NCBI GenBank assembly: GCA_012522335.1
Contig: JAAYKP010000020.1
Location: 1-49,729, forward strand
DNA: 49,729 bases
Reading direction: 5' to 3'
Source of the DNA: Bacillota bacterium
GTDB lineage: Bacteria > Bacillota > Dethiobacteria > Dethiobacterales > Dethiobacteraceae
The notes below the pieces were generated by a model. It was not told the DNA's origin, ran no database searches, and saw nothing but the letters and a program-made list of their open reading frames with translations. Positions 22,585 through 41,481 of the stretch are shown here, one piece after another. Positions within the stretch are counted from its first letter, which is position 1. The number at the start of each line of letters is the position of its first letter. The position numbers were made by a program, and so were the translations under genes.

Positions 22585-23823
22585 TTAATACTTGCCGTAC
22601 TTTTCAACAGCCTCGTAAACAGCACGGATGTTTTCAATGGGAGTACCGCGTGGGCAGTTCCCAATATTAGGCGAGAAGATAAACCCGCCACCAGGTGCCA
22701 CTTCGTCAAAGAGTTCCTTAACTTGCTGGTCCAGCTTGGCCGGTGTGCTGCTGATAATATCACTGACATCAATACCGCCCATGATGCATGTATGCCCCTG
22801 CAGCAGCTTTTTCGCTTTGCGGACATCTGTTTTTTCAAAATAGGCTGTACCCCAGCCGGCAGGAAGCTCCAGAATAGTTTCCATATGTGGATCATGCCAG
22901 CCTTCAAAGAAGACCTGTGTTTTTAAGCCCGCCTCAAAAAGCTTTATGATTACCTCTTTTAAAGTAGGCCAGTAAAACTCATTATACAGCTGAGGAGACA
23001 GGTATTCATTCAAGTGAAGGGGAATGAATACCTCCTTTGCCCCTAACTCTTTAGATAACAGAGCTATTTTTAACAGCGGCTCCAACAATGCTTCCGCTGC
23101 GGCTTTAACTTTGTCCGGATACCGGCGTATATCCAGGATTACATTGGGAATATCCCGCAGCTGGTCACCAATATAATCTAAAGGAGCTAAACATGAGCCC
23201 CTGGCGCCAAAAGAATAACCTAATTTCTCAAGTTCATGTATAGTTTTGGCCATCTCCGCATTCTGCCTGGCTTTTTCCATTCCTAAACGAGCCATAGCTG
23301 CCAGGGCCGTCGGAGACTCCGGATCTTTTAAATTGCCGGCAATACGCGGCAGTATTTTCTCAAAATTAAACTTCACCGGATCAGCAATTAACTCATCGTA
23401 CTCGTCCGGACTCATATTGCAGCAGCCGACAAATTGTGGACTGCTGTATTCGTCCAGCTCTCTGCCCGGGAAACGAGCAAAATTCATTTTGAGGATATCA
23501 TTAATCGGTCCGTTAATAGTGCCGAAGCCGTCTGCCAAATCGGGAAAATCCGAGAAGGCTACAGGCATGACACGGCAGCCTATGCCGGTAAAACCAACCC
23601 TTGGCGCACTGTCACTGGGGAAATCTGTAAACCACTTAACTGCTGCCAGCCGGTTCTTTTCGAAGTCAAACTCATACTCATAGGCGGAAATTCCTGCATA
23701 GGCAGGTATCACATCTCCGCCTAAACCTGTAAACGGCACACGATCAGGCTCTTTTAGCTCTATAGCCGCCTGCAGTCTGGCTGTACGTTCTGCTGCCAGT
23801 TTTCTTGCTTCCGGACTCACCAT
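22585..23823 (-). CDS. MT1: UROD-fold corrinoid methyltransferase
   Basis: This 412-residue protein starts at the ATG at 23823; a GTG three codons upstream lies inside the ribosome site. It carries the array signature: ELKEPDRVPF near the N-terminus, EYDELIADPVKF, PLHLNEYLSP with LYNEFYWPTLKE (UROD family core), EGWHDPH at about residue 307, FEKTD, and the ending AVEKYGKY. Its closest relative in the array is MT11, at the opposite end: both have GGDVIPAYAG, SDSAPRVG, DVSDIIS and APGGGFIFSPNIG followed by CPR. Its own corrinoid partner survives only as the remnant just upstream, so it must borrow another corrinoid protein or be inactive in methyl transfer. It is not HemE, which is a single-copy enzyme of about 350 residues. 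Confidence 0.85.
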   Translation of the reverse strand: MVSPEARKLAAERTARLQAAIELKEPDRVPFTGLGGDVIPAYAGISAYEYEFDFEKNRLAAVKWFTDFPSDSAPRVGFTGIGCRVMPVAFSDFPDLADGFGTINGPINDILKMNFARFPGRELDEYSSPQFVGCCNMSPDEYDELIADPVKFNFEKILPRIAGNLKDPESPTALAAMARLGMEKARQNAEMAKTIHELEKLGYSFGARGSCLAPLDYIGDQLRDIPNVILDIRRYPDKVKAAAEALLEPLLKIALLSKELGAKEVFIPLHLNEYLSPQLYNEFYWPTLKEVIIKLFEAGLKTQVFFEGWHDPHMETILELPAGWGTAYFEKTDVRKAKKLLQGHTCIMGGIDVSDIISSTPAKLDQQVKELFDEVAPGGGFIFSPNIGNCPRGTPIENIRAVYEAVEKYGKY

Positions 23824-23835
23824 CTTGTTCACCCC

Positions 23836-23933
23836 TTAAGCCAGTATTTCTTTACTTAAACGGACACCACGCACAACTCATCAGTTCAGGAATCAGCACC
23901 TGTCCGCAAATCTTTTAACAGCTCTTCACGCAT
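23836..23933 (-). pseudogene. Remnant of a corrinoid protein gene (internal deletion)
   Basis: Behind AGGAGGGAC an ATG opens MREELLKDLR and stops after 15 codons. In another frame the last codons read RGVRLSKEILA and stop, matching the C-terminus RGVRLSKELLGKE of the intact corrinoid genes. About 530 bases of the middle are missing. Both ends align with C1-C6, so this was a complete gene ahead of MT1. Confidence 0.85.
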
Positions 23934-24010
23934 CCCTGTCCCTCCTGTTTTGAAAAAAATATCAGCATTACACTGCTATGTCAGAAGGGAAAATATTATG
24001 CCACTGTTTT

Positions 24011-24044
24011 ACTGCTGACAGGGGAAACCTCCCCTGTCAGCAGT
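24011..24044 (-). repeat. Array hairpin b, after MT2
   Basis: ACTGCTGACAGGGG and CCCCTGTCAGCAGT form a perfect 14-bp stem with a six-base loop, ten bases after the MT2 stop. No U-tract follows on the minus-strand transcript. Confidence 0.8.
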
Positions 24045-24053
24045 TTTAGCAAC

Positions 24054-25292
24054 CTAGTACTTCCCGTATTTTTCAACAGCCTCGTAGACGGCAGCGATAT
24101 TTTCAATTGGTGTGTTGCGCGGCAAGTTGGCCACATCGAGACAGAGAATAAAACCGCCACCCGGCATCATATCGCCTAACAGTCTCTTTACATGCTCATC
24201 GATTTGCGCCGGAGTACTACCGATTACTACACCCGCTTCCAGGCCGCCCATAATACAGGTATGCCCCTGCAGCAGCTTTTTCGCTTTACGTATATCTGTT
24301 TTTTCAAAATAAGCTGTGCCCCAACCGGCAGGCAGTTCTAAAATGGTTTCCAGATGCGGATCATGACGGCCTTCAAAGAAGATCTCTGATCTCATGCCGT
24401 GTTCACGCAGCCGCAAAACAAATTCTTTCAAAGTGGGCCAGAAAAATTCTTTATACAGCTCGGGAGACAAATACTCATTCAGGTGCAGGGGGAACATGGC
24501 CATTTCTGCACCCAGCTTTTTATGCTCCAGTGTGATCTTGAGTAATACTTCCAGAATAGACTCGCATGCTGCCTTAACTTTGTCCGGATATCTGCGCAGA
24601 TCGAGAATTAAGCTGGGAATATCACGCAGAAAATCGCCAATATAGTCCAGGGGAGCATAAGCAAAAGCTCCGGTAGAGGGAGGATAACCTAATTTCGCCA
24701 TCTCCGCCCCCAGGCGCATCATCTCCGCGTTCTGTCTCGCTTTTTCCATCCCCCAGCGAGCCATGGTAGCCAAGGCAGTAGGTGAGCCTAAGTCCTGCAG
24801 ATTGGTGACGGTACGGGGAATCATTTTTTCCATACTAAATTTAACCGGATCAGCAATTAACTCATCATACTCTTCCGGCTGCATATAGATATCACCAATA
24901 AACTGTGGACTGCTGTCTTCATCCAGTTCCCTGCCCGGAAAACGACAATACTTAACTCCTAAAATGTCATTTAAGGGACCGGTAACCATAAACATACTTG
25001 TAGCCAGGTCCGGATAATCTGCAAAGGCTATACACATCACAAGGTTACAGACATTGGACATCCCTCCGAACATAACCCCGTCACTGGGGAAGTCGGTCAG
25101 GAACTTAATGGTAGCCTGGAGAGATTTCTCGTAATCAAAGTTAAACTCATAGCTGGTGAGACCGGAGTAAGCGGCCACCACATCACCGGCCACACCCATA
25201 AAAGGTACGCGGTCAGGTTCTCTCAGCTCAATCGCAGCCTTCATTCTGGCAGCGCGTTCCTGCGCCAATTTTTGCGCTTCTAAACTGATCAC
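24054..25292 (-). CDS. MT2: UROD-fold corrinoid methyltransferase
   Basis: This 412-residue paralogue appears to start at GTG (25292; product MISLEAQK), since no ATG is near and the start aligns with those of its paralogues. It has ELREPDRVPF instead of ELKEPDRVPF, EGRHDPH, and a changed loop after the HTCIMGG motif: GLEAGVVIGSTP where others have GIDVG or GIDVS. It is closest to the adjacent MT3: both have YEFNFDYEK, ATIKFL with DFPSD, and AMFPLHLNEYLSPELY. MT3 and MT2 lie in tandem 26 bases apart, with no corrinoid gene between them, so they probably arose by tandem duplication. Confidence 0.85.
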   Translation of the reverse strand: MISLEAQKLAQERAARMKAAIELREPDRVPFMGVAGDVVAAYSGLTSYEFNFDYEKSLQATIKFLTDFPSDGVMFGGMSNVCNLVMCIAFADYPDLATSMFMVTGPLNDILGVKYCRFPGRELDEDSSPQFIGDIYMQPEEYDELIADPVKFSMEKMIPRTVTNLQDLGSPTALATMARWGMEKARQNAEMMRLGAEMAKLGYPPSTGAFAYAPLDYIGDFLRDIPSLILDLRRYPDKVKAACESILEVLLKITLEHKKLGAEMAMFPLHLNEYLSPELYKEFFWPTLKEFVLRLREHGMRSEIFFEGRHDPHLETILELPAGWGTAYFEKTDIRKAKKLLQGHTCIMGGLEAGVVIGSTPAQIDEHVKRLLGDMMPGGGFILCLDVANLPRNTPIENIAAVYEAVEKYGKY

Positions 25293-25318: not shown

Positions 25319-26554
25319 TTAATACTTACCGTACTTTTCCACAGCCTCATAAACTGCGCGGATATTTTCAATTGGTGTCTCACGAGGTAAGTTGTTTACA
25401 TTGGCACTAAGAATAAAACCTCCGCCCGGCATCATTTCACCCAGCAGCTCTTTCATGTATTCATCGATTTTTGCCGGTGTACCACCAATGACTACACCTA
25501 CATCAATGCCGCCCATAATACAGGTATGACCCTGCAGAATTTTTTTAGCTTTACGTACATCAGTCTTTTCAAAATATGCTGTACCCCAACCGGCAGGCAG
25601 TTCCAAAATAGTGTCTAAATGTGCATCATGGCGCCCCTCAAAGAAGATTTGCGATATCATTCCTTCCTCGCGCAAGCGCAGGACATATTCCTTTAAAGTG
25701 GGCCAGTAAAATTCCCTATATAGTTCCGGCGAAAGATATTCATTCAGGTGCAGGGGAAACATGGCACTCTTGGCGCCCATTGCCTTGCTTTGCAACGTCA
25801 GCCTTAATAATGTCTCCAGCAAAGATCTGGTCGCAGCTTTTACTTTCTCCGGATACCTGCGTAAATCCAGGATTAAATTAGGGATATCACGGAGTTGGTC
25901 ACCTATATAATCCAAGGGAGCGCTGGCAAATGCACCAGCTGAGCCACCGTAACCTAATTTCGCCAAATCTGCTCCCAGACGAGCCATCGCCGCACTTTGC
26001 TTCTGAATTTCCATGCCAAAACGAGCCATGGTTGCCATTGCGGCAGGGGAACCTAAATCTTCCAGGTTTTCAACTGTGCGCGGGAGTATCTTTTCGTAAC
26101 TAAATTTGACGGGGTCTGCAATCAAATCATCGTATTCTTCCGGCTGCATGTAGGTGCCGCCAATAAACTGCGGACTGCTGTTTACAGGTAGTTCCCGGCC
26201 GGGGAAACGGAAATATTTCACTTTTAAAATGTCATTCATCGGTCCGTTAATCATAAAGAATCTACCGGCCAAGTCAGGATAATCCAGAAAAGCTAAAGTC
26301 ATCACCAGGTTACCTAAAGCCGACATCCCCACCATGGCCCGATCACTGGGAAAGTCCTGAAGAAATTTTATCGTTGCTTGGTGTGCTTTCTCGTAATCAA
26401 AATTAAATTCATAGCTGGTGAGACCGGCATAAGCTGCCACCACATCTCCACCCAAACCCATAAAAGGGACTCTATCCGGCTCCTTTAAATTAATAGCTGC
26501 CTGTATTCTCGCTTCACGTTCTTCTGCCAGTTTTTTCGCTTCCGGACTAATCAT
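25319..26554 (-). CDS. MT3: UROD-fold corrinoid methyltransferase
   Basis: This 411-residue paralogue starts at the ATG at 26554. It is distinguished by NLKEPDRVPF, LPVNSSPQFIGGTYMQPEEYDDL, a Gly/Ser-rich segment GYGGSAGAFASAPLDYIGDQ before the domain middle, and EGRHDAH. There is no corrinoid gene upstream; instead it follows a 418-base spacer, the longest inside the array, and is probably the first gene of a separate MT3-MT2-MT1 transcript. The region between the conserved blocks (about residues 45-110 and 195-225) differs most from the other paralogues and probably lines the substrate pocket; that is an inference from the pattern of variation. Confidence 0.85.
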   Translation of the reverse strand: MISPEAKKLAEEREARIQAAINLKEPDRVPFMGLGGDVVAAYAGLTSYEFNFDYEKAHQATIKFLQDFPSDRAMVGMSALGNLVMTLAFLDYPDLAGRFFMINGPMNDILKVKYFRFPGRELPVNSSPQFIGGTYMQPEEYDDLIADPVKFSYEKILPRTVENLEDLGSPAAMATMARFGMEIQKQSAAMARLGADLAKLGYGGSAGAFASAPLDYIGDQLRDIPNLILDLRRYPEKVKAATRSLLETLLRLTLQSKAMGAKSAMFPLHLNEYLSPELYREFYWPTLKEYVLRLREEGMISQIFFEGRHDAHLDTILELPAGWGTAYFEKTDVRKAKKILQGHTCIMGGIDVGVVIGGTPAKIDEYMKELLGEMMPGGGFILSANVNNLPRETPIENIRAVYEAVEKYGKY

Positions 26555-26972
26555 TATCTTCACCCCTAACTACTTATTCTTGCTAACAGTCACCAGAGGC
26601 TGTATCACCTCCTTGACATTAGCGTCTATCTCTTTACAGCGGCTCGTACATGTTGACGGAATATTGCCACAATTGCCTGCAAAATTTGTCCAGCTGCAAA
26701 CAAGGCTGTTTACTGATTGTCGCTGCCAGTATACTGTTATGTCTAATCAGGCGGCTGTATTCCATTTATTACGCTTTACGTTGTTAGCCCCGCCAGCAGC
26801 TTCTTTTAAATAGTGCAGGACCCGCTGTTTCCGCGGGTCCTGACAAAACCAGGCGAAATTAAAGAGAATCCCGCTTTAACAACATCCGGCAGTGATTCAA
26901 AGTTATAATATTCAGCCTGAGAAGAAAGCTGACAGGGACTTATCCCCTGTCAGCTGTTAATTTGGATATAGG
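26555..26972 (-). other. Long spacer splitting the methyltransferase array
   Basis: This 418-base stretch has no convincing gene. It holds array hairpin c and a second, unrelated 10-bp perfect stem (26816-26842; CAGGACCCGC with GCGGGTCCTG). On the minus strand short open stretches such as KEIDANVKEVIQPLVTVSKNK just before MT3 look like the end of a decayed gene but match nothing I recognise. I found no clear promoter, although one is expected for MT3-MT2-MT1. Confidence 0.5.
26927..26955 (-). repeat. Array hairpin c, after MT4
   Basis: AGCTGACAGGG and CCCTGTCAGCT form an 11-bp perfect stem with a seven-base loop, 17 bases past the MT4 stop. Confidence 0.8.
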
Positions 26973-28211
26973 TTAATACTTGCCGTATTTTTCTACTGCT
27001 TCGTAGACGGCAGCAATATTTTCAATTGGTGTTTCGCGCGGCAGGTTACCTACGTTAGGTCCGCAGATATAGCCGCCACCAGGCATCATGTCTCCCAATA
27101 GGGCTTTCATATACTCATCAATTTTAGCAGGGGTCCCGCTGATGACCACACCGACATCAATACCACCGGAAATACAGGTGTGACCCTGCAGCATCTCTTT
27201 TGCTTTACGCACATCTGTTTTTTCCAGGGCTACATAACCCCAGCCGGCAGGCAGATCTAAGAAAGTATCCAGATGCGGGTCATGCCAACCTTCACAAAAG
27301 ACCCGTGAATTCATTCCTTCAGCCCGCACACGCAGGATATATTCCTTTAATGTCGGCCAATAAAACTCTCTATACAATTTGGGTGAAAGGTATTCATTTA
27401 AATGCAGCGGGAAGCTGGCTGTTTTTGCCCCGGCCGCTTTGCCCTGCAGCGTCCATTTGACTAAAACTTCTAAAATCGCTTCCGCTGCCGCTTTAACTTT
27501 GTCCGGGTAGCGGCGGATATCCAATACCACATTGGGCAGGTCACGCAAATGGTCGCCGATATAGTCCAATGGGGCAAAAGCATAAGTCATACCACCACCG
27601 CGTGGATAACCCAGTTCCGCTAAAGCTTGCGCCAGTTTCCCCATCTCTGCGGCTTGTTGAGCCTTAACCATCCCCAACCGGGCCATGGCGGCTAAAGAAG
27701 TAGGTGAACCCAGATCCTTAAGATTGTTGGAAATACGCGGTAATATTTTTTCATAACTGAATTTTACCGGATCAGCGATTAGCTCATCGTATTCTTCCGC
27801 TTCCATATTTTTACCGCCTATAAACTGCCGGCTGCTGTTTGCATCCAACTGTCGGCCCGGGAAACGGGCAAATTTCATATCCAGCACATCATTCATCGGC
27901 CCGTTAACCATGAAGAACTGGTTAGCCAAATCCGGGAAATCGACAAAGGCCACCGACATGGTCAAGTTATCCAGACCGCCAAGGCCGCCGGTAGCACTGT
28001 CAGCGGGAAAATCTTTGAGCCATTTAATTACGGCTGCACGGTTTTTTTCATAATCAAACTCATACTCGTGAGCAGTAATCCCCGCATAAGCTGCAATGAC
28101 ATCGCCGCCTAAACCTAAGAAAGGCACCCGATCCGGTTCTTTTAATTCAATCGCCGCCTGCATTCTGGCCGCACGTTCTTCTGCCAACTTTTGCATTTCG
28201 GGACTAACCAT
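26973..28211 (-). CDS. MT4: UROD-fold corrinoid methyltransferase paired with C1
   Basis: This 412-residue paralogue starts at the ATG at 28211, six bases after the stop of the corrinoid gene C1; its ribosome site AAGGAG is formed by the last sense codons of C1, so translation is coupled. It belongs to a subgroup with MT8 and MT9: FPGRQLD, GGKNMEAEEYDEL, FAPLDYIGDHLRDLPNVVLDI, CEGWHDPH with Cys in place of Phe, and CGPNVGNLPR near the end. It is unique in having YVALEKTD where all others have a Phe before EKTD, and DLPAGWG instead of ELPAGWG. These changes lie next to the proposed metal site. Confidence 0.87.
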   Translation of the reverse strand: MVSPEMQKLAEERAARMQAAIELKEPDRVPFLGLGGDVIAAYAGITAHEYEFDYEKNRAAVIKWLKDFPADSATGGLGGLDNLTMSVAFVDFPDLANQFFMVNGPMNDVLDMKFARFPGRQLDANSSRQFIGGKNMEAEEYDELIADPVKFSYEKILPRISNNLKDLGSPTSLAAMARLGMVKAQQAAEMGKLAQALAELGYPRGGGMTYAFAPLDYIGDHLRDLPNVVLDIRRYPDKVKAAAEAILEVLVKWTLQGKAAGAKTASFPLHLNEYLSPKLYREFYWPTLKEYILRVRAEGMNSRVFCEGWHDPHLDTFLDLPAGWGYVALEKTDVRKAKEMLQGHTCISGGIDVGVVISGTPAKIDEYMKALLGDMMPGGGYICGPNVGNLPRETPIENIAAVYEAVEKYGKY

Positions 28212-28216
28212 CAAGA

Positions 28217-28846
28217 TCACTCCTTACCAAGCAGTTCTTTACTTAAGCGGACACCGCGTGCCGCATCGTCAGCCCAGGCATCGGCACCTACGTGCTCCAT
28301 CACAGCTTGGCTGACCCGGCCGCCGCCGATAATAATCTTGATGTCGTCGCGCAGGCCGGCCTCTCTGATAACCTCAATGGTCCGCTTCATGGAATCGACA
28401 CCGAGGGTAATTAAACAGCTCATACCGACAAGCTCCGGCTTATGCTCTTTGATTGCTTCCACAAACTTTTCGTGGGGTAGATCAATGCCGATGTCAATCA
28501 CATTAATACCGGAAGCTTCTGCCATAACCTTGAAGATATCCTTACCGATGTTGTGCACGTCACCCAGCACCGTACCTAAAACCATGGTGCCGATACTGGC
28601 GACTTCGCCCCCCTGCAGCTTAGGCAGGGTAAACTCCATGATTTGGTTAAACATATCGCCGGCGGCGATTAACTCGGATAAGAAATACTCGCCGGCTTCA
28701 AACAGTCTGCCTACCTCTTCCATCGCTTCTTTACAGGTGTCAAGTACTGCTGCTGCACCACCGTCCGTCTCAATCAATTCCCTGGCAATTCTGACTGCCT
28801 CCTGCTCATCCATGTCCACGAAGCTTTTTAACAGTTCGTCTCGCAT
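28217..28846 (-). CDS. C1: corrinoid (B12-binding) protein, methyl carrier
   Basis: This 209-residue protein has the two-part structure of methyltransferase corrinoid proteins. The N-terminal helical cap contains EEVGRLFEAGEYFLSELIAAGDMF. The Rossmann domain has the cobalamin motif D96-x-H98-x-x-G101 in GDVHNIGKDI, S143-x-L145 in GMSCLIT and a GGG at about 174-176. H98 should coordinate cobalt from below. It would carry the methyl group between MT4 and an acceptor enzyme that is not in this window. It has Leu94 and Ser143, a state shared only with C6, and is alone in having Leu in IGIDLPHEKF. The start at 28846 is set by GGAGGTG. Confidence 0.95.
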   Translation of the reverse strand: MRDELLKSFVDMDEQEAVRIARELIETDGGAAAVLDTCKEAMEEVGRLFEAGEYFLSELIAAGDMFNQIMEFTLPKLQGGEVASIGTMVLGTVLGDVHNIGKDIFKVMAEASGINVIDIGIDLPHEKFVEAIKEHKPELVGMSCLITLGVDSMKRTIEVIREAGLRDDIKIIIGGGRVSQAVMEHVGADAWADDAARGVRLSKELLGKE

Positions 28847-28907
28847 AAATAAGCACCTCCACATGTTTTTGTTTAGACAATGTACACATTTTGTCTATCC
28901 ATGTGTG

Positions 28908-28938
28908 CTGCTGACAGGGGACACTCCCCTGCCAGCAG
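28908..28938 (-). repeat. Array hairpin d, after MT5
   Basis: CTGCTGACAGGGG and CCCCTGCCAGCAG (12 of 13 bases paired, five-base loop), 11 bases after the MT5 stop. It lies between MT5 and C1 and so divides two modules. Confidence 0.8.
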
Positions 28939-28949
28939 TCTTAGGGAAC

Positions 28950-30185
28950 TTAATATTTACCGTATTTCTCCACAGCTTCATAAACGGCTGCAATGTTTTC
29001 GATGGGGGTTTCACGCGGTAAATTGCCGATATTGGGCGAAAGAATGAAGCCGCCGCCCGGCATCATTTCGCCTAACAGTTCTTTAATGTATTCATCTAGT
29101 TTAGCCGGTGTACTGGCGATTACCATGCCCACATCGATACCACCCATGATGCAGGTATGCCCCTTGAGGATTTTTTTCGCTTTGCGTACATCGGTCTTTT
29201 CAAAGTAGCCGACACCCCAACCGGCGGGCAATTCTAAAACGCTTTCCATGTGCGCGTCATGCCAGCCTTCAAAGAAGACCTGAGATTTCATGCCTTCCTG
29301 CAGCATTCTTAAGATACCTTCTTTAAGGGTAGGCCAGTAAAACTCATTATAAAGTTTTGGTGAGAGATACTCATTTAGATGCAGTGGAATAAAGGCCATA
29401 TCTGCACCTATGTTTTTACCCAGGAGAGCCAACTTTAACATAGGCTCAAGCAGAGCTTCCGCTGCTGCTTTAACTTTGTCAGGATAACGACGTAAATCTT
29501 TAACCAAATTCACGGTATCACGCAGGTTATCACTGATGAAATCCAGGGGTGCTAAAAAGAAGGAAGCCGGCTCAGATTTATAACCTAACTTCAGCAGTTC
29601 AGCTGCCTGTTTCTGCATGAAAGCTCCTGACCTTGCTTTATGCATACCAAACCTGGCCATAGTCGCCAAAGCCGCGGGGGAGCCGAGATCTCGTAAGTTC
29701 CTGGTAGTGCGGGGTACAATTTTTTCAAACAAAAACTTGACTGGATCTGCAATCAATTCGTCATATTCATCTGCCTTCATATATTCAGCGCCGATAAACT
29801 GCGGACTGCTGTATTCGTCCACTTCCCGGCCCGGGAAACGAATGTAATCAACGCCTAAAATATCGTTAGTGGGCCCGTCTACCATAGCGAACAGTCCTGT
29901 CAGATCGGGATAATCCAAAAATGCTAACTGGGTAATAGCATTCCCGATCCCGGACATGCCGCCAATGGGACGATCACTGGGGAAGTCCTTTAGATATTTG
30001 ATGATGGCCTGCAGAGATTTCTCGGGGTCAAAGCAGTACTCGTAGCTGGAGATGCCGGCATAAGCCGCCACAACATCACCGCCCATGCCCGTGAAGGGGA
30101 CCCGATCAGGCTCTTTTAATTCTATCGCCGCTCTATATCTGGCGGCACGTTCTTCTGCCAGCTTAAGCATTTCGGGACTGGGCAT
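28950..30185 (-). CDS. MT5: UROD-fold corrinoid methyltransferase paired with C2
   Basis: This 411-residue paralogue starts at the ATG at 30185, just past the C2 stop, with GGAAGGAG supplied by the end of C2. It groups with MT6 and MT10 through PTNDILGVDY with RFPGRE, a PLDFI segment (here FFLAPLDFISDNLRDTVN), and the VKDLRRYPDKVKAA variant of the common LDLRRYPDKVKAA. It has EGWHDAHMESVLELPAGWG and KGHTCIMGG, with Lys where most have Gln. The FLAPLDFISDNL text is its most distinctive part. Confidence 0.87.
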   Translation of the reverse strand: MPSPEMLKLAEERAARYRAAIELKEPDRVPFTGMGGDVVAAYAGISSYEYCFDPEKSLQAIIKYLKDFPSDRPIGGMSGIGNAITQLAFLDYPDLTGLFAMVDGPTNDILGVDYIRFPGREVDEYSSPQFIGAEYMKADEYDELIADPVKFLFEKIVPRTTRNLRDLGSPAALATMARFGMHKARSGAFMQKQAAELLKLGYKSEPASFFLAPLDFISDNLRDTVNLVKDLRRYPDKVKAAAEALLEPMLKLALLGKNIGADMAFIPLHLNEYLSPKLYNEFYWPTLKEGILRMLQEGMKSQVFFEGWHDAHMESVLELPAGWGVGYFEKTDVRKAKKILKGHTCIMGGIDVGMVIASTPAKLDEYIKELLGEMMPGGGFILSPNIGNLPRETPIENIAAVYEAVEKYGKY

Positions 30186-30189
30186 AAAA

Positions 30190-30819: not shown

Positions 30820-30874
30820 TTTCACTTGCACCTCCGTTTTTTATCAGCACCCTGTTCAGGGATTGCTTAAACTG

Positions 30875-32208: not shown

Positions 32209-32237
32209 GGCTGACAGGGAGCAGCTCCCTGTCAGCC
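32209..32237 (-). repeat. Array hairpin e, after MT7
   Basis: GGCTGACAGGGAGC and GCTCCCTGTCAGCC form a 14-bp near-perfect palindrome around a single A, 11 bases after the MT7 stop. In practice the loop would open to at least three bases. Confidence 0.8.
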
Positions 32238-33481: not shown

Positions 33482-33501
33482 TTTTGATATCACCTCTTAT
33501 C

Positions 33502-33590
33502 CTTAGTATGTTTTTACTACAGCGAACGCCGCGAGCTTCTTCGTCAGCTCAGTCATCAGCGCCCACATACTCCATCACAGCCTGATTAAT
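33502..33590 (-). pseudogene. Remnant of a corrinoid protein gene (3' end only)
   Basis: In one minus-strand frame the text reads INQAVMEYVGADD, a TGA stop (33549-33551, where intact copies have the Trp of GADAWADD), then ADEEARGVRCSKNIL. This matches VSQAVMEHVGADAWADDAARGVRLSKELL of C1-C6. Everything before this segment, including the cobalamin motif, is gone. It is the eroded partner of MT7. Confidence 0.85.
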
Positions 33591-33613
33591 TATGGGCATT
33601 TCTTTTTTCTTGA

Positions 33614-33647
33614 AAAACTGACAGGGGACTTAGCCCCTGCCAGTTTT
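33614..33647 (-). repeat. Array hairpin f, after MT8
   Basis: AAAACTGACAGGGG and CCCCTGCCAGTTTT (13 of 14 paired). Here the minus-strand transcript ends CAGTTTTTC, so this copy, unlike the others, could act as an intrinsic terminator. Confidence 0.8.
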
Positions 33648-33659
33648 CAGTTGGAGAAA

Positions 33660-34892
33660 TTAGTACTTACCGTATTTCTCTATAGCTTCATAGACTGCTG
33701 CAACGTTTTCGATAGGTGTTTCACGCGGCAGGTTGCCTACGTTCGGTCCGCAAATATAACCGCCACCGGGCATCATGTCGCCCAACAGGGCTTTCATGTA
33801 CTCATCAATTTTAGCGGGAGTGCCGCTGATGACCACACCGACATCAATACCACCTTGAATAACGGTGTGACCCTGGAGAATCTTTTTCGCTTTGCGGACA
33901 TCTGTTTTTTCAAACATAGCTCTACCCCAGCCGGCGGGGAGCTCTAAGAAGGTTTCCAGATGAGGATCATGCCAGCCTTCGCAGAATAAGCTTGACTTTT
34001 TACCGTTCTCAGCCAACCGCAGGATGAATTCTTTTAAGGTGGGCCAATAGAATTCATTATACAGTTTGGGAGAGAGGTACTCATTCAAGTGCAGTGGGAA
34101 CATGATGGTATCTGCATGTTGATTCTGCATAGCCAGCTTAAAGAGCACTTCCAGGATGGAACGGGTTGCTGCTTTTACTTTATCCGGGTATTTACGGATA
34201 TCCAGCACCACATTGGGAAGATCGCGCAGGTGGTCACCGATATAATCCAGCGGGGCAAAACCAAAACCAAAACCGCCGCCCGAGGGGAAGCCCAGCTCTG
34301 CCAGGGCCTGCCCGGTTTTCATTAATTCGGCCGCCTGCTGCGCTTTTACCATACCTAAACGAGCCATGGTTGCCAAAGCCTTCGGTGAGCTCATATCTTG
34401 TAAGTTATTGCTGATGCGCGGCAGGATTTTTTCATAGGCAAATTTTTGCGGATCAGCAATTAACTCATCATACTCTTCCGGCTCCATGTTCTTGCCGCCG
34501 ATAAACTGCGGGCTGCTGTACTCATCCAGTTGCCTGCCGGGGAAACGGGCAAATTTCATATCCAGCACATCATTCATGGGGCCATTGAGCATAAAAATGC
34601 TGTTAGCCAAATCGGGGAAATCGACAAAGGCTACCGACAGGGAAAGGTTATCTAACCCACCGACACCGCCCTGGGGACTATCCGCCGGGAAATCTGTGTT
34701 CCACTTAATGATGGCCTGACGGTTTTTTTCAAAATCAAAGTTGTATTCATAACTGGAGATGCCGGCATATGCAGCGATAATGTCACCGCCTAAGCCTGAA
34801 AACGGCACACGGTCGGGCTCTTTTAGCTCATTAGCCGCTTTCATGCGCGCTGCACGTTCTTCAGCTAATTTTTGCATTTCAGGGCTTACCAT
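33660..34892 (-). CDS. MT8: UROD-fold corrinoid methyltransferase paired with C3
   Basis: This 410-residue paralogue starts at the ATG at 34892, five bases past the C3 stop. It belongs with MT4 and MT9 (GPMNDVLDMKFARFPGRQLD, GGKNMEPEEYDEL, DHLRDLPNVVLDI) but shares AMFEKTD and HTVIQGGIDV with MT7. A Gly/Phe-rich SGGGFGFGFAPLDY segment is unique, as is EAIEKYGKY, with Ile for the Val of all the others. It also has ANELKEPDRVPFSG with Ser for Thr. It follows C3 in a complete module. Confidence 0.87.
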   Translation of the reverse strand: MVSPEMQKLAEERAARMKAANELKEPDRVPFSGLGGDIIAAYAGISSYEYNFDFEKNRQAIIKWNTDFPADSPQGGVGGLDNLSLSVAFVDFPDLANSIFMLNGPMNDVLDMKFARFPGRQLDEYSSPQFIGGKNMEPEEYDELIADPQKFAYEKILPRISNNLQDMSSPKALATMARLGMVKAQQAAELMKTGQALAELGFPSGGGFGFGFAPLDYIGDHLRDLPNVVLDIRKYPDKVKAATRSILEVLFKLAMQNQHADTIMFPLHLNEYLSPKLYNEFYWPTLKEFILRLAENGKKSSLFCEGWHDPHLETFLELPAGWGRAMFEKTDVRKAKKILQGHTVIQGGIDVGVVISGTPAKIDEYMKALLGDMMPGGGYICGPNVGNLPRETPIENVAAVYEAIEKYGKY

Positions 34893-34897
34893 TTAGC

Positions 34898-35527
34898 TCA
34901 CTCCTTACCAAGTAATTCTTTACTTAAGCGAACACCGCGGGCGGCATCGTCTGCCCAGGCATCAGCGCCCACGTGTTCCATCACAGCTTGGCTGACCCGG
35001 CCGCCGCCGATAATAATCTTAATGTCATCACGCAGGCCGGCTTCTTTAATTACTTCGATGGTCCGCTTCATAGAATCGACACCGAGAGTAATTAAGCAGC
35101 ACATGCCAACAAGCTCAGGCTTATGCTCTTTGATTGCTTCCACAAACTTTTCGTGGGGTACGTCAATACCGATATCAATCACATTGATGCCGGAGGCTTC
35201 GGCCATAACTTTAAAGATGTCCTTACCGATATTGTGTACGTCACCCTGCACAGTACCTAAAACCATGGTACCGAGGCTGGCAACTTCTTCCCCCTGCAGT
35301 TTAGGTAGGGTGAATTCCATAATCTGATTAAACATATCGCCGGCAGCAATTAGCTCGGATAAGAAATATTCACCGGCTTCAAACAGTCTGCCTACCTCTT
35401 CCATTGCCTCTTTACAGGTATCCAATACTGCTACTGCGCCGCCGTCAGTCTCAACCAGTTCTCTGGCAATTTTTACTGCTTCCTGCTCGTCCATGTCAAC
35501 GAAACTTTTCAACAACTGTTCACGCAT
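34898..35527 (-). CDS. C3: corrinoid protein, methyl carrier
   Basis: This 209-residue copy carries Gln94 and Cys143 (GTVQGDVHNIGK, GMCCLIT). It is marked by KLQGEEVASLGTMV, a combination shared only with C5, and by AVKIAREL where others have AVRIAREL. The start at 35527 is set by GGAGGTG; the frame extends 13 codons further without a site. It is followed immediately by MT8. Confidence 0.95.
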   Translation of the reverse strand: MREQLLKSFVDMDEQEAVKIARELVETDGGAVAVLDTCKEAMEEVGRLFEAGEYFLSELIAAGDMFNQIMEFTLPKLQGEEVASLGTMVLGTVQGDVHNIGKDIFKVMAEASGINVIDIGIDVPHEKFVEAIKEHKPELVGMCCLITLGVDSMKRTIEVIKEAGLRDDIKIIIGGGRVSQAVMEHVGADAWADDAARGVRLSKELLGKE

Positions 35528-35618
35528 GCATGTCACCTCCAAATTTTTATATAACATAATCAGCATTACACTGTTATGCTGCCGTTACAGCTGACTCTTT
35601 CCTTCAGCTGCGCTGACC

Positions 35619-35644
35619 GGCTGACAGGGGCTTCCCTGTCAGCC
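35619..35644 (-). repeat. Array hairpin g, after MT9
   Basis: GGCTGACAGGG and CCCTGTCAGCC form a perfect 11-bp stem with a four-base loop, 14 bases past the MT9 stop and ahead of C3. Confidence 0.8.
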
Positions 35645-35657
35645 GCCAGCATTAAAA

Positions 35658-36896
35658 TTAATACTTGCCGTACTTTTCTACAGCTTCATAAACTGCAGCT
35701 ACATTTTCAATTGGTGTGTTGCGCGGCAGGTTGCCCACATTGGGACCGAGGATGAAGCCGCCACCAGGCATCATATCACCTAATAACCGCTTAATGTACT
35801 CATCGATCTCGGCAGGCGTACCGCTAATAACCACACCGACATCTATGCCGCCTGAGATACAGGTATGACCTGCCAATACTTTTTTCGCCTTGCGTACATC
35901 GGTTTTTTCGAAGGCTGCAATTCCCCAACCGGCAGGCAGTTCTAAGAAGGTGTCAAGGTGAGCATCATGCCAGCCTTCACAGAACAGCCGGGATCTCATG
36001 CCTTCTTCCCGCAAACGCAAAATATACTCTTTTAATGTCGGCCAATAGAATTCTCTATACAGTTTAGGTGAAAGGTACTCATTCAGGTGCAGCGGGAAAC
36101 CGGCTTGTACCGCGCCGGCAGCTTTACCCTGCAGCGTCCATTTAACCAGAACTTCTAAAATCGCTTCTGCTGCCGCCTTTACTTTATCCGGATAGCGGCG
36201 GATATCAAGCACCAAATTGGGCAGATCCCGTAAATGGTCACCGATATAATCCAGTGGCGCAAAAGCAAAGGTTGAACCGCCACCTGTGGGATAGCCTAAT
36301 TCGGCCAAGGCGGCTCCGGTTTTTCTCATTTCAGCAGCCTGTTGGGCTTTTACCATGCCTAAGCGGGCCATGGTAGCCAAGGAAGTGGGAGATCCCAAAT
36401 CGGCTAAATTGCCGGCAATACGGGGCAAAATTTTCTCATAGCTGAACTTAACCGGATCAGCAATTAACTCGTCGTACTCTTCCGGCTCCATGTTCTTGCC
36501 GCCAATGAACTGCCGGCTGCTGTATTCATCCAGCTGTCTGCCGGGGAAGCGGGCAAATTTCATGTTGAGCACATCGTTCATGGGACCGTTAACCATAAAG
36601 AACTGGTTAGCCAGATCAGGGAAGTCAACAAAGGCAACGGACATGGCCAGGTTATCTAAACCGCCAATGCCGCCGACAGGACTGTCGGCGGGAAAATCTT
36701 TAAGCCACTTAATAGCCGCCTGACGGTTCTTTTCAAAATCAAACTCAAACTCATAGGCAGTAATTCCGGCATAAGCTGCTACTATATCACCGCCCAAACC
36801 GGTAAAGGGCACGCGATCAGGCTCTTTTAACTCAATAGCAGCCTGCATGCGAGCAGCACGCTCTTGTGCTAATTTTTGCATTTCGGGACTAACCAT
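35658..36896 (-). CDS. MT9: UROD-fold corrinoid methyltransferase paired with C4
   Basis: This 412-residue paralogue starts at the ATG at 36896, with AAGGAG supplied by the end of C4. It is the nearest relative of MT4: both have a WTLQGKAAGA segment before FPLHLNEYLSPKLYREFYWPTLKEYILR, and GHTCISGGIDVGVVISGTP. It differs in CEGWHDAHLDTFLELPAGWG, KVLAGHTC with Ala, and IAAFEKTD. MT9-C4 and MT4-C1 are thus a duplicated module whose carriers fall into different corrinoid subgroups. Confidence 0.87.
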   Translation of the reverse strand: MVSPEMQKLAQERAARMQAAIELKEPDRVPFTGLGGDIVAAYAGITAYEFEFDFEKNRQAAIKWLKDFPADSPVGGIGGLDNLAMSVAFVDFPDLANQFFMVNGPMNDVLNMKFARFPGRQLDEYSSRQFIGGKNMEPEEYDELIADPVKFSYEKILPRIAGNLADLGSPTSLATMARLGMVKAQQAAEMRKTGAALAELGYPTGGGSTFAFAPLDYIGDHLRDLPNLVLDIRRYPDKVKAAAEAILEVLVKWTLQGKAAGAVQAGFPLHLNEYLSPKLYREFYWPTLKEYILRLREEGMRSRLFCEGWHDAHLDTFLELPAGWGIAAFEKTDVRKAKKVLAGHTCISGGIDVGVVISGTPAEIDEYIKRLLGDMMPGGGFILGPNVGNLPRNTPIENVAAVYEAVEKYGKY

Positions 36897-36900
36897 GAGA

Positions 36901-37530
36901 TCACTCCTTACCAAGTAATTCTTTACTTAGGCGAACACCGCGCGCTGCATCGTCAGCCCAGGCATCAGCGCCCACGTGCTCCATGACAGCTTGGCTGACC
37001 CGGCCGCCGCCGATAATAATCTTAATGTCATCGCGCAGGCCGGCTTCTTTTATGACCTCGATGGTCCGCTTCATGGAATCAACACCGAGGGTGATTAAGC
37101 AGCACATGCCGACAAGTTCAGGCTTATGTTCTTTAATAGCTTCGACGAACTTTTCATGGGGAACATCAATACCGATATCAATAACATTGATGCCGGAGGC
37201 TTCCGCCATAACCTTGAAGATATCCTTACCAATGTTATGCACGTCCCCCTGGACAGTACCTAAGACCATGGTCCCAATGCTGGCAACTTCGTCTCCCTGC
37301 AGTTTAGGTAGGGTGAATTCCATAATTTGATTAAACATATCGCCGGCAGCAATTAACTCGGACAAGAAATATTCACCGGCTTCAAACAGTCTGCCTACCT
37401 CTTCCATTGCTTCTTTACAGGTTTCCAATACTGCTACTGCTCCGCCGTCAGACTCAACCAGTTCTCTGGCAATTCTTACGGCTTCCTGCTCGTCCATGTC
37501 GACGAAACTTTTCAACAACTCTTCACGCAT
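36901..37530 (-). CDS. C4: corrinoid protein, methyl carrier
   Basis: This 209-residue copy has Gln94 and Cys143, and is marked by ELVESDGGAVAVLETCKE, where other copies have Thr for the Ser and Asp for the second Glu. From about residue 37 to the end it is nearly identical to C2, C3 and C5. GGAGGTG precedes the start. The gap to MT10 upstream (37531-37604) contains a decayed version of the array hairpin (GGGGTTGACCCC core inside TAGC/GCTA). Confidence 0.95.
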   Translation of the reverse strand: MREELLKSFVDMDEQEAVRIARELVESDGGAVAVLETCKEAMEEVGRLFEAGEYFLSELIAAGDMFNQIMEFTLPKLQGDEVASIGTMVLGTVQGDVHNIGKDIFKVMAEASGINVIDIGIDVPHEKFVEAIKEHKPELVGMCCLITLGVDSMKRTIEVIKEAGLRDDIKIIIGGGRVSQAVMEHVGADAWADDAARGVRLSKELLGKE

Positions 37531-37604: not shown

Positions 37605-38837
37605 TTAGTACTTACCGTACTTCTCCACAGCCTCATAGACAGCTCTAATATTCTCAATGGGAGTTTCGCGCGGCAAGTTGCCAATGTTGGGGGCGAGAAT
37701 GAAACCGCCACCCGGCATCATTTCACCTAAAATTTCCTTAATATATTCATCAAGCTTGGCGGGAGTGCTGCTGATAACCATACCTACATCAATGCCTCCC
37801 ATAATGCAGGTATGACCCTGGAGCAGCTTTTTCGCTTTGCGCACATCAGTCTTTTCAAAATAAGCTGTACCCCAACCGGCAGGCAGTTCAAGGATTGTTT
37901 CCAGATGAGCGTCATGCCGGCCTTCAAAGAAGACTTGAGACTTCATGCCGAGTTCAGCCAGACGCAGTATTCCTTCTTTCAAGGTAGGCCAATAAAACTC
38001 ATTATAGAGAGCCGGCGACAGGTATTCGTTTAAATGGAGAGGTATCATCGCTGTCTCTACACCAGGCCCTTTAGCATTAACTGACACCTTTAACAGCGGT
38101 TCCAGCACAGCCTCAGTGGCTGCCTTGACTTTGTCCGGATAGCGCCGCAAATCCTTAATTAGATTAGGAATGTCACGCAGCTGATCGCCAATAAAATCCA
38201 AGGGCGCGAAAAAGACAGATAATCCGCCAGGAGCATAGCCAAGCTCCTGCAGCTGCCTAAACATGTCTCTCATAGCAGCCCCGGCTTTGGCTTTTTCCAG
38301 GGCCAGACGTGCCATAGCAGCATGAGCTTCAGGTGCCTTCATATCCCGGAAAGCTCTCACTATCCGGGGAAGAATTTTTTCAAAACAGAACTTCACAGGA
38401 TCAGCAATCAACTCATCGTATTCTTCCGCCGACATATATTCCCTACCGATAAACTGGGGACTGCTGTTTTCATCCAGTTCCCGTCCGGGAAAGCGGCAGT
38501 AGTCAACTCCCAGAATATCATTAGTCGGACCATCAACACGGGAAATAATGGGGTACAGATCGGGATAATCAGAAAAGGCCATTGAGGCAACATGATTACC
38601 TAACCCCGTCATGCCAATCACCGGCTGATCGCTGGGAAAATCCTTAACATATTTGATGATGGCCTGACACTGTTTTTCGTAGTCAAAATTAAACTCGTAG
38701 CTGGTAATGCCGGCATAAGCAGCGATTACATCACCGCCAATACCTGTAAAAGGAACGCGGTCTGGCTCCTTCAGTTCTACAGCAGCTTTAAGTCTTGCCG
38801 CCCTTTCTGCAGCCAGTTGCTTTGCATCTACTGCCAT
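37605..38837 (-). CDS. MT10: UROD-fold corrinoid methyltransferase paired with C5
   Basis: This 410-residue paralogue starts MAVDAKQLAAERAARLK at the ATG at 38837; it lacks the SPEM/SPEA start of most others. It groups with MT5 and MT6 (PTNDILGVDY with RFPGRE, FFAPLDFIGDQLRDIPNLIKDL). The middle is distinctive: RAFRDMKAPEAHAAMARLALEKAKAGAAMRDMFRQL, and VSVNAKGPGVETAMIPLHLNEY. It has EGRHDAHLETILELPAGWG. It is coupled to C5 through AAGGAG at the end of that gene. Confidence 0.87.
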   Translation of the reverse strand: MAVDAKQLAAERAARLKAAVELKEPDRVPFTGIGGDVIAAYAGITSYEFNFDYEKQCQAIIKYVKDFPSDQPVIGMTGLGNHVASMAFSDYPDLYPIISRVDGPTNDILGVDYCRFPGRELDENSSPQFIGREYMSAEEYDELIADPVKFCFEKILPRIVRAFRDMKAPEAHAAMARLALEKAKAGAAMRDMFRQLQELGYAPGGLSVFFAPLDFIGDQLRDIPNLIKDLRRYPDKVKAATEAVLEPLLKVSVNAKGPGVETAMIPLHLNEYLSPALYNEFYWPTLKEGILRLAELGMKSQVFFEGRHDAHLETILELPAGWGTAYFEKTDVRKAKKLLQGHTCIMGGIDVGMVISSTPAKLDEYIKEILGEMMPGGGFILAPNIGNLPRETPIENIRAVYEAVEKYGKY

Positions 38838-38842
38838 GCTCT

Positions 38843-39472
38843 TCACTCCTTACCAAGCAATTCTTTGCTTAAACGAACGCCGCGCGCTGCATCGTCAGCC
38901 CAGGCATCAGCGCCAACGTGCTCCATCACGGCTTGGCTGACCCGACCGCCGCCGATAATAATCTTAATGTCATCACGCAGGCCGGCTTCCTTAATTACTT
39001 CGATGGTCCGCTTCATAGAATCAACACCGAGAGTAATTAAGCAGCACATGCCAACCAGCTCCGGCTTATGCTCTTTGATTGCTTCCACAAACTTTTCGTG
39101 GGGTACGTCAATACCGATGTCAATCACATTGATGCCGGAAGCTTCGGCCATAACTTTAAAGATGTCCTTACCGATGTTATGTACGTCACCCTGCACAGTA
39201 CCTAAAACCATGGTACCGAGGCTGGCAACTTCTTCCCCCTGCAGTTTAGGTAGGGTGAATTCCATAATCTGATTAAACATGTCGCCGGCAGCTATTAACT
39301 CTGATAAGAAATACTCACCGGCTTCAAATAATCTCCCTACCTCTTCCATTGCTTCTTTACAGGTGTCCAGGACTGCTACCGCACCGCCCTCAGTCTCAAC
39401 CAATTCCCTGGCGATTCTTACTGCCTCCTGCTCATCCATGTCAACAAAACTTCTTAACAATTCTTCCCGCAT
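38843..39472 (-). CDS. C5: corrinoid protein, methyl carrier
   Basis: This 209-residue copy has Gln94 and Cys143, LLRSFVDMD where others have LLKSFVDMD, and LVETEGGAVAVL shared with C6. It shares KLQGEEVASLGTMV with C3, suggesting a recent exchange between these two. The start at 39472 follows GGAGGTG; the frame extends 16 codons upstream without support. MT10 follows at once. Confidence 0.95.
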   Translation of the reverse strand: MREELLRSFVDMDEQEAVRIARELVETEGGAVAVLDTCKEAMEEVGRLFEAGEYFLSELIAAGDMFNQIMEFTLPKLQGEEVASLGTMVLGTVQGDVHNIGKDIFKVMAEASGINVIDIGIDVPHEKFVEAIKEHKPELVGMCCLITLGVDSMKRTIEVIKEAGLRDDIKIIIGGGRVSQAVMEHVGADAWADDAARGVRLSKELLGKE

Positions 39473-39572
39473 AAAACAGTACACCTCCAGATGAATTAAT
39501 ACTTGCACTAAATCAGCCAAATTACTTATTGCATCCGTCTACAGCACCACTACAATATTTTGTTAACTGAGA

Positions 39573-39599
39573 GCTGACAGGGGGCAGGCCCCTGTCAGC
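39573..39599 (-). repeat. Array hairpin h, after MT11
   Basis: GCTGACAGGGG and CCCCTGTCAGC form a perfect 11-bp stem with a five-base loop, seven bases after the MT11 stop. Confidence 0.8.
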
Positions 39600-39606
39600 C
39601 TATTTA

Positions 39607-40845
39607 TTAATACTTACCATACTTCTCTACAGCTTCGTAAACAGCCCTGACGTTTTCGATAGGCGTCTCACGTGGGCAGGTGCCGATATTGGGTGAGAAG
39701 ATGAAACCGCCACCGGGTGCCATTTCGTCAAAAAGCTTCTTAATATTTTCGTCCAATTGAGCCGGGGTCAGGCTGATAATATCACTTACATCAATACCAC
39801 CCATGATGCAGGTATGTCCCTGCAGCAGTTTCTTTGCTTTACGCACATCTGTTTTTTCAAAATAAGCTGTACCCCAACCGGCAGGCAGCTCAAGGATTGT
39901 CTCCAGGTGAGCGTCATGCCAACCCTCAAAAAACACCTGAACCTTCATGCCCGCCTCAACCAGTTTAAGAATAACTTCTTTCAAGGTTGGCCAGTAAAAC
40001 TCATTATATTGTTTGGGCGAGAGATACTCGTTCAAATGCAGTGGGATAAAACACTCCTTTGCTCCCGCCTTGATGCTCATCGTTCCCATTTTAACCATGG
40101 GCTCTACCAATGCTTCCGCTGCAGCCTTAACTTTGTCGGGATAGCGGCGCAAATCCAGAATAAGGTTGGGTATGTCGCGCAGCTGGTCACTGATTAAATC
40201 CAGGGGAGCCAGGCAGACACCTCTGGGAGCAAAGTAATAACCCAATTCCATCAAGGCCTGCATCGTTTTCGCCATTTCGGCATCCTGTCTCGCTTTTTCC
40301 AGACCAAAGCGGGCCATGGTAGCCAGCGAAGCGGGAGAACCTAAGTCCTTTAACCCGCCCGAAATTCTCGGCATAATTACTTCGAAGCAGAATTTGACCG
40401 GGTCGGCAATTAACTGATCATACTCCTCCGGCTCCATGTTCTTGCCGCCTATGAACTGGCGGGCACTGTTCTCATCAAGTTCTCTGCCCGGGAAACGGAC
40501 AAACTTCATCTTGAGAACATCATTCATGGGACCGTTAACTGAGTTAACGCCGCTTACGATCTCCGGATAATCTTGAAAGGCTACACCCATTGACTGGTTA
40601 TCTAAGCCACCAAGTCCCACCCTGGGGGCACTGTCACTGGGGAAGTCCGTAAACCACTTAACGGCTGCCTGCCGGTTCTTTTCAAAATCAAACTCATACT
40701 CATAAGAAGTGATACCGGCATAAGCAGGAATTACATCGCCGCCCAAGCCTGTGAAAGGCACACGATCCGGCTCTTTTAAATCCAGAGCTGCCTGCATCCT
40801 TGCCGCCCGTTCTTCTGCCAGCTTTTTCGCTTCCGGACTAACCAT
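39607..40845 (-). CDS. MT11: UROD-fold corrinoid methyltransferase paired with C6
   Basis: This is the first methyltransferase transcribed in the array and a good type example. It is 412 residues with no signal peptide or membrane segment. The family core of uroporphyrinogen decarboxylase-like proteins is visible (LHLNEYLSPKQYNEFYWPTLKE, then EGWHDAH, FEKTD, GHTCIMGGID, TPIENVRAVYEA). The HxC...C zinc signature of MtaA/MtbA coenzyme M methyltransferases is missing; Glu, His and Asp in EGWHDAH and the Glu of FEKTD are invariant in all eleven copies and are the best metal-ligand candidates, as in aryl O-demethylase methyltransferase I enzymes. The substrate is unknown. NSARQFIGG and EYDQLIADP are its own variants. 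It starts behind AGGGGTG, 12 bases after C6. Confidence 0.87.
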   Translation of the reverse strand: MVSPEAKKLAEERAARMQAALDLKEPDRVPFTGLGGDVIPAYAGITSYEYEFDFEKNRQAAVKWFTDFPSDSAPRVGLGGLDNQSMGVAFQDYPEIVSGVNSVNGPMNDVLKMKFVRFPGRELDENSARQFIGGKNMEPEEYDQLIADPVKFCFEVIMPRISGGLKDLGSPASLATMARFGLEKARQDAEMAKTMQALMELGYYFAPRGVCLAPLDLISDQLRDIPNLILDLRRYPDKVKAAAEALVEPMVKMGTMSIKAGAKECFIPLHLNEYLSPKQYNEFYWPTLKEVILKLVEAGMKVQVFFEGWHDAHLETILELPAGWGTAYFEKTDVRKAKKLLQGHTCIMGGIDVSDIISLTPAQLDENIKKLFDEMAPGGGFIFSPNIGTCPRETPIENVRAVYEAVEKYGKY

Positions 40846-40857
40846 TAAGTTCACCCC

Positions 40858-41481
40858 TTATCCGAGCAATTCTTTGCTTAAACGCACACCACGCGCGGCG
40901 TCGTCTGCCCAGGCATCAGCGCCCACGTGCTCCATGACAGCCTGGCTAACGCGGCCGCCGCCAATAATAATCTTAATGTCGTCGCGCAGACCGGCTTCCT
41001 CAATCACCTCAATTGTCCGCTTCATGGAATCAACACCGAGAGTAATTAGGCAGCTCATACCAACAATTTCCGGCTTATGTTCTTTAATTGCTTCCACGAA
41101 CTTTTCATGCGGCACATCAATGCCTATGTCAATGACATTGATGCCCGATGCTTCGGCCATCACTTTAAAAATATCCTTACCAATGTTATGTACGTCACCC
41201 AAAACAGTACCTAAAACCATGGTCCCGATACTGGCAACTTCGCCCCCCTGCAGCTTAGGTAGGGTAAATTCCATGATCTGGTTAAACATATCACCGGCAG
41301 CAATTAACTCTGATAAGAAATACTCACCGGCTTCAAATAATCTACCCACCTCTTCCATGGCTTCTTTACAGGTGTCAAGGACTGCTACTGCGCCACCCTC
41401 AGTCTCAACCAATTCCCTGGCGATCCTGACAGCTTCAGCTTCATCCATATCTACAAAACTTTTTAGAAGTTCTTTCTGCAT
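40858..41481 (-). CDS. C6: corrinoid protein, first gene of the array
   Basis: This 207-residue copy lacks the final Lys-Glu of the other five and ends SKELLG. It has Leu94 and Ser143 as in C1. It is marked by MQKELLKSF, DMDEAEAVRIA, KPEIVGMS and VIEEAGLRDD. The start is taken at 41481, nine bases after GGAGGTG and in line with the other copies; an ATG at 41487 is also possible. The first 263 bases upstream hold the only plausible control region of the array. Confidence 0.94.
   Translation of the reverse strand: MQKELLKSFVDMDEAEAVRIARELVETEGGAVAVLDTCKEAMEEVGRLFEAGEYFLSELIAAGDMFNQIMEFTLPKLQGGEVASIGTMVLGTVLGDVHNIGKDIFKVMAEASGINVIDIGIDVPHEKFVEAIKEHKPEIVGMSCLITLGVDSMKRTIEVIEEAGLRDDIKIIIGGGRVSQAVMEHVGADAWADDAARGVRLSKELLG

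Follow-up and report, generated by a model that had tools for sequence, protein, structure and literature searches.

The closest described counterparts of the locus reported here are the archaeal Mto systems of Archaeoglobus fulgidus (AF_0006-0013) and Methermicoccus shengliensis (MtoABCD), in which a UROD-type methyltransferase (MTI) of ~415 amino acids (aa) is encoded beside a 210-aa corrinoid protein. The gene order that we read in A. fulgidus, corrinoid protein, methyltransferase, MFS transporter, MtrH, activase, corrinoid protein, methyltransferase and MFS transporter, is that of AF_0006-AF_0013 in PMC8359953, and this cluster, including AF_0008, is induced on a methoxyaromatic (PMC8359953). 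The vanillate and veratrole O-demethylases of acetogens (MtvB, OdmB and VdmB) are described in the literature as members of the same superfamily that work by the same logic of an MTI, a corrinoid protein, a second methyltransferase (MTII) and an activase, and that feed tetrahydrofolate (H4F) and the Wood-Ljungdahl pathway. The zinc enzymes MtaA, MtbA and CmuA share the UROD fold. CdmB (PDB 9rui), encoded in a single cdmBCA module, is a chloromethane:corrinoid MTI that needs no zinc and serves as a scaffold for substrate channelling (PMC13222342). Here we describe an array of MTI and corrinoid-protein genes on a 49,729-nucleotide (nt) contig, JAAYKP010000020.1 of assembly GCA_012522335.1, the whole of which is called the window below. 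The host belongs to the Dethiobacteraceae and is an uncultured anaerobic acetogen-type bacterium. We conclude that the array is an extreme variant of the known Mto-like MTI/carrier module and not a new kind of enzyme.

The minus strand of positions 22585-41511 carries 11 intact UROD-family open reading frames (ORFs; 410-418 aa), MT1 to MT11, and six corrinoid-protein ORFs, CoP1 to CoP6, hereafter also called carriers, in a 19-kb block (Table 1). ORFs were taken from a six-frame listing with translation, and the MT lengths depend on the start codon chosen. In this listing no other gene type is inserted in the block, and there are no pseudogenes among the eleven MT and six CoP ORFs. The original prediction of eleven paralogues and six corrinoid proteins in about 19 kb without a foreign gene type was therefore borne out. 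Its lengths of 410-412 aa and its end at 41481 differ from ours trivially, through the choice of start codon, and its inventory, although correct, lacked two carrier-gene remnants and the intergenic stem-loops. In the direction of transcription the order is GPH symporter, CoP6-MT11, CoP5-MT10, CoP4-MT9, CoP3-MT8, (CoP relic)-MT7-MT6-CoP2-MT5-CoP1-MT4-MT3-MT2-(CoP relic)-MT1. Because the genes of the six CoP-MT pairs either share 4 or 14 nt or lie 3-5 nt from each other, each pair is probably translationally coupled.

The eleven MTs are almost certainly corrinoid-dependent MTIs. In a whole-genome search all eleven exceeded the Pfam URO-D cut-off of 23.9 (best 81 bits). HemE, which the original prediction had named among the outcomes that would speak against it, was rejected, as the TIGR01464 model gave MT1 and MT6 only 19.6 and 29.3 bits against a cut-off of 303. 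Zinc methyltransferases of the MtaA/MtbA/CmuA type were also rejected; NCBIfam scores were far under the cut-off, and the HxC...C zinc ligands are absent at what we take to be the MtaA ligand positions. An AlphaFold2 model of MT9 matched the UROD and MtaA folds (4ay7/4ay8) with a TM-score of up to 0.73 normalised by target, and the array MTs have the UROD-superfamily TIM barrel of ~410-420 aa that marks the Mto type. The motif DVHNIGKD is common to all six carriers. The CoP tested contained both B12-binding domains (PF02607 and PF02310), and the best relatives of solved structure were stand-alone and methionine-synthase corrinoid domains.

Among characterised enzymes the array MTs are nearest to archaeal MtoB. 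Their identity to A. fulgidus MtoB (AF_0007) is 41-45%, compared with 31-34% to CdmB. Of the relatives with solved structures CdmB ranks first (E 2.5e-77), and it too lacks zinc and has N-terminal extensions. CdmB and A. fulgidus MtoB are 31% identical, the same figure as PMC13222342 reports for MtoB. The array MTs and MtoB have the motifs HLNEYL[SN]P, F.EG[WR]HDAH and F[ED]KTD in common, whereas CdmB has WYNSFLSK, SFQGEHDHL and FDRTN at the same positions. The His, Glu and Asp residues kept in the array and MtoB, and partly replaced in CdmB, may act as acids; such a role would fit a phenolate leaving group, while a halide needs none. The arrangement is also Mto-like, with six CoP-MT pairs and a CoP4 that is 46% identical to A. 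fulgidus MtoC. The A. fulgidus cluster differs in having two modules together with MtoA (MtrH type) and MtoD, whereas the bacterial array combines eleven MTs with six CoPs, and MTII (MeTr type) and activase genes lie elsewhere in the genome.

In a 75-row tree the eleven MTs and the single homologue from the Dethiobacteraceae genome M17C-03 formed one clade (100/99), in agreement with the local expansion that had been proposed. The next relatives were from the Bacillota metagenome-assembled genome AS09scLD_241, then from Tepidanaerobacter, Thermosediminibacter, Fervidicola and Thermovorax, and then from Bathyarchaeota. As the M17C-03 homologue nests within the array clade, most of the expansion is older than the split of the two genera. 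The M17C-03 contig begins inside a carrier gene, and the array may have been lost or left unassembled there. The array clade grouped with MtoB to the exclusion of CdmB with a support of 92/79 in the full tree (p 0.63 in an approximately unbiased (AU) test on a reduced tree), and AU tests on the reduced tree did not tell apart the alternative branching orders of these three lineages (p about 0.6).

Enzymes and carriers have evolved in opposite ways. MT pairs are 61-88% identical and most are saturated at silent sites (proportion of silent differences, pS, 0.66-0.82). This divergence, and the lack of exact repeats of more than 110 bp in the array, make an assembly artefact or strain chimera unlikely. 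The carriers are 92-97% identical, and their pairs are unsaturated and under strong constraint (pS 0.24-0.62, dN 0.012-0.050, dS 0.29-1.33). A conversion-like tract was found between CoP3 and CoP5, and carrier genes contain the two longest exact repeats (110 and 101 bp). From the silent-site contrast, the tract and the repeats, we conclude that the MTs are diverging and that the carriers are held uniform by selection and gene conversion. Two decayed carrier remnants precede MT7 and MT1, so that at least eight CoP-MT modules once existed. The first is 80% identical to CoP4 across 80 nt, and the first codons of the second sit behind an AGGAGGG sequence. Loss of carriers before some enzymes is as expected if carriers are interchangeable; together with the uniformity and conversion of those that remain, it agrees with the earlier proposal of one shared carrier type. 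The combination of conserved carrier and diverged MT was also found in A. fulgidus (97% versus 70% in its duplicated CoP-MT pairs), the archaeon G157 (91-97% versus 60-82%) and Fervidicola (90% versus 64-77%), indicating that the contrast is characteristic of the family.

Downstream of most MT genes lies a covarying stem-loop, CTGACAGGG...CCCTGTCAG. The 2.0-Mb genome contains five perfect copies, all of them inside the array, where the other copies are imperfect. In an alignment of nine stem-loop sites, from which that of MT10 was left out as its stem did not align, six pairs carry changes in both partners, and pairing is kept in 90% of cells, compared with 36-54% when the partner is shifted by 1-3 columns. 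The stem-loops, only a few of which look like terminators, may separate the modules by acting as mRNA-end or processing elements.

Table 1. Features of the array and its flank in window coordinates
Feature	Position	Strand	Remarks
MT1	22585..23832	-	UROD-family corrinoid methyltransferase (MTI); closest paralogue MT11 (77%)
Corrinoid-protein gene remnant preceding MT1	about 23843..23933	-	initial codons retained, interior deleted, stop-containing scrap of the C-terminus
Stem-loop after MT2	24011..24044	-	intercistronic
MT2	24054..25292	-	MTI without own carrier
MT3	25319..26563	-	MTI without own carrier
Stem-loop after MT4	26927..26955	-	
MT4	26973..28220	-	MTI; 4-nt overlap with CoP1 gene end
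CoP1	28217..28864	-	corrinoid protein
Stem-loop after MT5	28902..28945	-	
MT5	28950..30203	-	MTI; overlaps CoP2
CoP2	30190..30831	-	corrinoid protein
MT6	30875..32110	-	MTI without own carrier
Stem-loop after MT7	32209..32237	-	
MT7	32249..33493	-	MTI; its carrier gene is a remnant
Corrinoid-protein gene remnant preceding MT7	33504..33590	-	C-terminal part, internal stop; E 7e-6
Stem-loop after MT8	33612..33650	-	
MT8	33660..34892	-	MTI
CoP3	34898..35566	-	corrinoid protein
Stem-loop after MT9	35618..35645	-	
MT9	35658..36914	-	MTI; AlphaFold2 model m61b5cc0298e9, mean pLDDT 93.7
CoP4	36901..37530	-	corrinoid protein
MT10	37605..38846	-	MTI
CoP5	38843..39520	-	corrinoid protein
Stem-loop after MT11	39573..39599	-	
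MT11	39607..40854	-	MTI
CoP6	40858..41511	-	corrinoid protein; first gene of the array
GPH-type (MelB-like) cation symporter	41745..43139	-	directly upstream of array; candidate substrate transporter

Components for the later steps are encoded elsewhere in the genome, which has three pterin-binding proteins and three RACE/RACo-type activases. MTIIs of the MeTr type are present on contigs C150 and C140, and activases on C150 and C157. On C150 (L118, G000:C150:16000-26000) an MTII, a carrier, a GntR-type regulator and an activase lie side by side, and this cluster probably serves the array in trans. NCBIfam labels its MTII as methyltetrahydrofolate:corrinoid methyltransferase; it is 69-74% identical to the MTIIs beside sister MTs, with a corresponding value of ~50% for the activase. 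The genome also has two acetyl-CoA synthase (CdhC/AcsB) genes (G000:C105:17597-18061 and G000:C147:3722-4186). Sister loci, the neighbours of which were named partly from sequence starts, carry activase, MTII, FchA, carbon monoxide dehydrogenase (CODH)/CooC, and GPH and MFS transporters; the MFS protein of L016/L011 is 35% identical to AF_0008, and the GPH protein of the Thermovorax MT locus L019 is 33% identical to the symporter upstream of the array. A circumstantial link between the host and methoxyaromatics is provided by its closest relative, M17C-03, which comes from lake sediment enriched on 3,4-dimethoxybenzoate in the presence of ampicillin (PMC10477458). A literature search for demethylation by Tepidanaerobacter or Dethiobacteraceae gave nothing direct beyond this enrichment.

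The interpretation that we favour, with moderate confidence, is that the array is a tandemly amplified Mto-like MTI/carrier set that cleaves methoxylated aromatics and feeds the Wood-Ljungdahl pathway. Each MTI, a UROD-type TIM barrel without zinc, would bind one or more methoxylated compounds, most likely methoxyaromatics derived from plants or lignin, and present the methyl group to the Co(I) of the common corrinoid protein, while protonation of the phenolate leaving group may fall to conserved polar residues (HLNEY, EG[WR]HD and KTD). Each of the eleven enzymes is expected to work with each of the six near-identical carriers. The methyl-Co(III) carrier would then pass the methyl group to H4F via the MTII encoded on C150, Co(II) formed accidentally would be re-reduced by the RACE/RamA-type activases of C150 and C157, and the methyl-H4F would enter the Wood-Ljungdahl pathway. 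This route is supported by the MTII and activases in trans, the acetyl-CoA synthase genes and the content of the sister loci. Donor range probably differs between at least several of the eleven MTIs. Methoxyaromatics, which the original prediction had offered as its best guess, appear the better bet as main donors, as the nearest characterised relative is archaeal MtoB and the motifs agree.

Other donors and other reasons for the amplification were considered. As a GPH symporter gene lies immediately upstream and GPH genes occur in four sister MT loci too, an MTI array of the same build could instead use non-aromatic donors imported by this symporter, e.g. O-methyl sugars or methyl glycosides. 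This is unlikely, since the sister loci also hold MFS genes like the methoxyaromatic-induced AF_0008 and the array MTs retain the MtoB motifs. We also know of no description of corrinoid cleavage of sugar methyl ethers, and the members of the GPH family are not all sugar carriers, both of which count against O-methyl sugars. We regard it as very unlikely that the array encodes haloalkane (chloromethane-type) dehalogenating methyltransferases such as CdmB. Although CdmB is the best relative of solved structure, lacks the MtaA-type zinc ligands as the array does, and is not separated from the array and MtoB lineages by the tree, its motifs (WYNSFLS and SFQGEHDH) are absent from the array MTs. 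Motifs and identity rule out CdmB membership, true CdmB-like genes of other Dethiobacteraceae (one 75% identical) group with CdmB, and eleven haloalkane specificities are hard to motivate. A third explanation is that the eleven enzymes have essentially one substrate range and that the array is kept for expression level. Amplified loci typically show tandem modules with repeated stem-loops and gene conversion, and the carriers were amplified with hardly any change in sequence. However, pure dosage would favour MTs homogenised like the carriers, whereas the MTs have diverged with all ORFs intact and with changes mainly in the extension segments, and we consider this explanation improbable. Equally doubtful is the bolder possibility of a combinatorial array, in which eleven MTIs of different and partly new specificities, including non-aromatic methyl ethers imported by the GPH symporter, would share one interchangeable carrier kept uniform by gene conversion, and stem-loop-delimited modules would let enzyme genes be swapped or expressed singly.

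Several observations weigh against an array of methoxyaromatic demethylases with distinct specificities. Family position is a weak guide to substrate, because CdmB, which the tree does not set apart from MtoB as the nearest lineage, takes haloalkanes and not methoxyaromatics. In favour of our interpretation, variable MT residues concentrate at 73-120 and 187-218, segments picked after viewing the alignment (15 of 80 positions invariant versus 147 of 329; Fisher p 1.3e-5). These segments fall in the N-terminal part, which in CdmB holds the extensions that form substrate tunnels, and N-terminal control of substrate range is, by its title, the topic of Kreher 2010, as cited in PMC12915777. N-terminal variability is equally strong in the sister clade, however, which makes it a trait of the family that does not prove eleven specificities in the array. 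MTII and reductive activase, which Mto-type clusters include, are absent from the window, and the neighbouring transporter belongs to the GPH (sugar) family and not to the MFS type found beside MtoB. Finally, M17C-03 made up 3% of its enrichment, in which the presumed demethylator was a Bathyarchaeon (PMC10477458).

The size of the array is exceptional. At E<=1e-60, the other genomes among the 98 of the class have two members at most, and the maximum in 26 genomes of the class of Fervidicola is four. In the archaeal phylum of Methanogenium, 15 of 391 genomes have a member at E<=1e-40. The search of 398 phylum genomes scored only four candidates per genome; its counts are therefore minima, and array size was judged without them. 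The literature library that we searched contained no report of an equally large array; E. callanderi is reported to have six systems, one of them with two MTIs, and A. dehalogenans 26 systems genome-wide. The view that known loci have one or a few modules stands apart from the archaeon G157 (L114, G157:C3:300000-316000), which has five MTs and four carriers in 12.3 kb (~14 kb with the adjoining activase) as well as MFS genes. This independent archaeal expansion has fewer than half as many MTs, and because of it we regard the array as the extreme of a pattern and not unique in kind. Close CdmB relatives occur in other Dethiobacteraceae (L034, L035 and L036, the last 75% identical to CdmB) and are candidates for chloromethane use. 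Three tandem UROD-type methyltransferases of 458-495 aa from another subfamily are encoded elsewhere in the genome of the array (L121, G000:C70:1-8000), with no carrier gene in the 8 kb read.

No PHROG match was found, and a viral origin was rejected. No cobalamin or other riboswitch controlling the array was found in the window; the only aptamer is a distant c-di-GMP-I riboswitch (6161-6242, minus strand), which precedes a cluster of LPXTG/Cna-B-like pilin proteins and two sortase-like proteins (503-6242). Upstream of the array (43460-49260), an FmdA/AmdA-like amidase gene adjoins a branched-chain-amino-acid-type ABC transporter operon.

The array documents opposite evolutionary regimes of enzyme and carrier in one block, a pattern that recurs independently in archaea. 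With eleven MTIs apparently sharing one carrier, it is a natural library for the direct mapping of donor-specificity residues in corrinoid O-demethylases, and it could yield substrate-selective, oxygen-free demethylases for lignin-derived aromatics. The array probably enables its host to demethylate many related methoxy compounds of plant origin, and it points to the Dethiobacteraceae as overlooked users of methyl groups.

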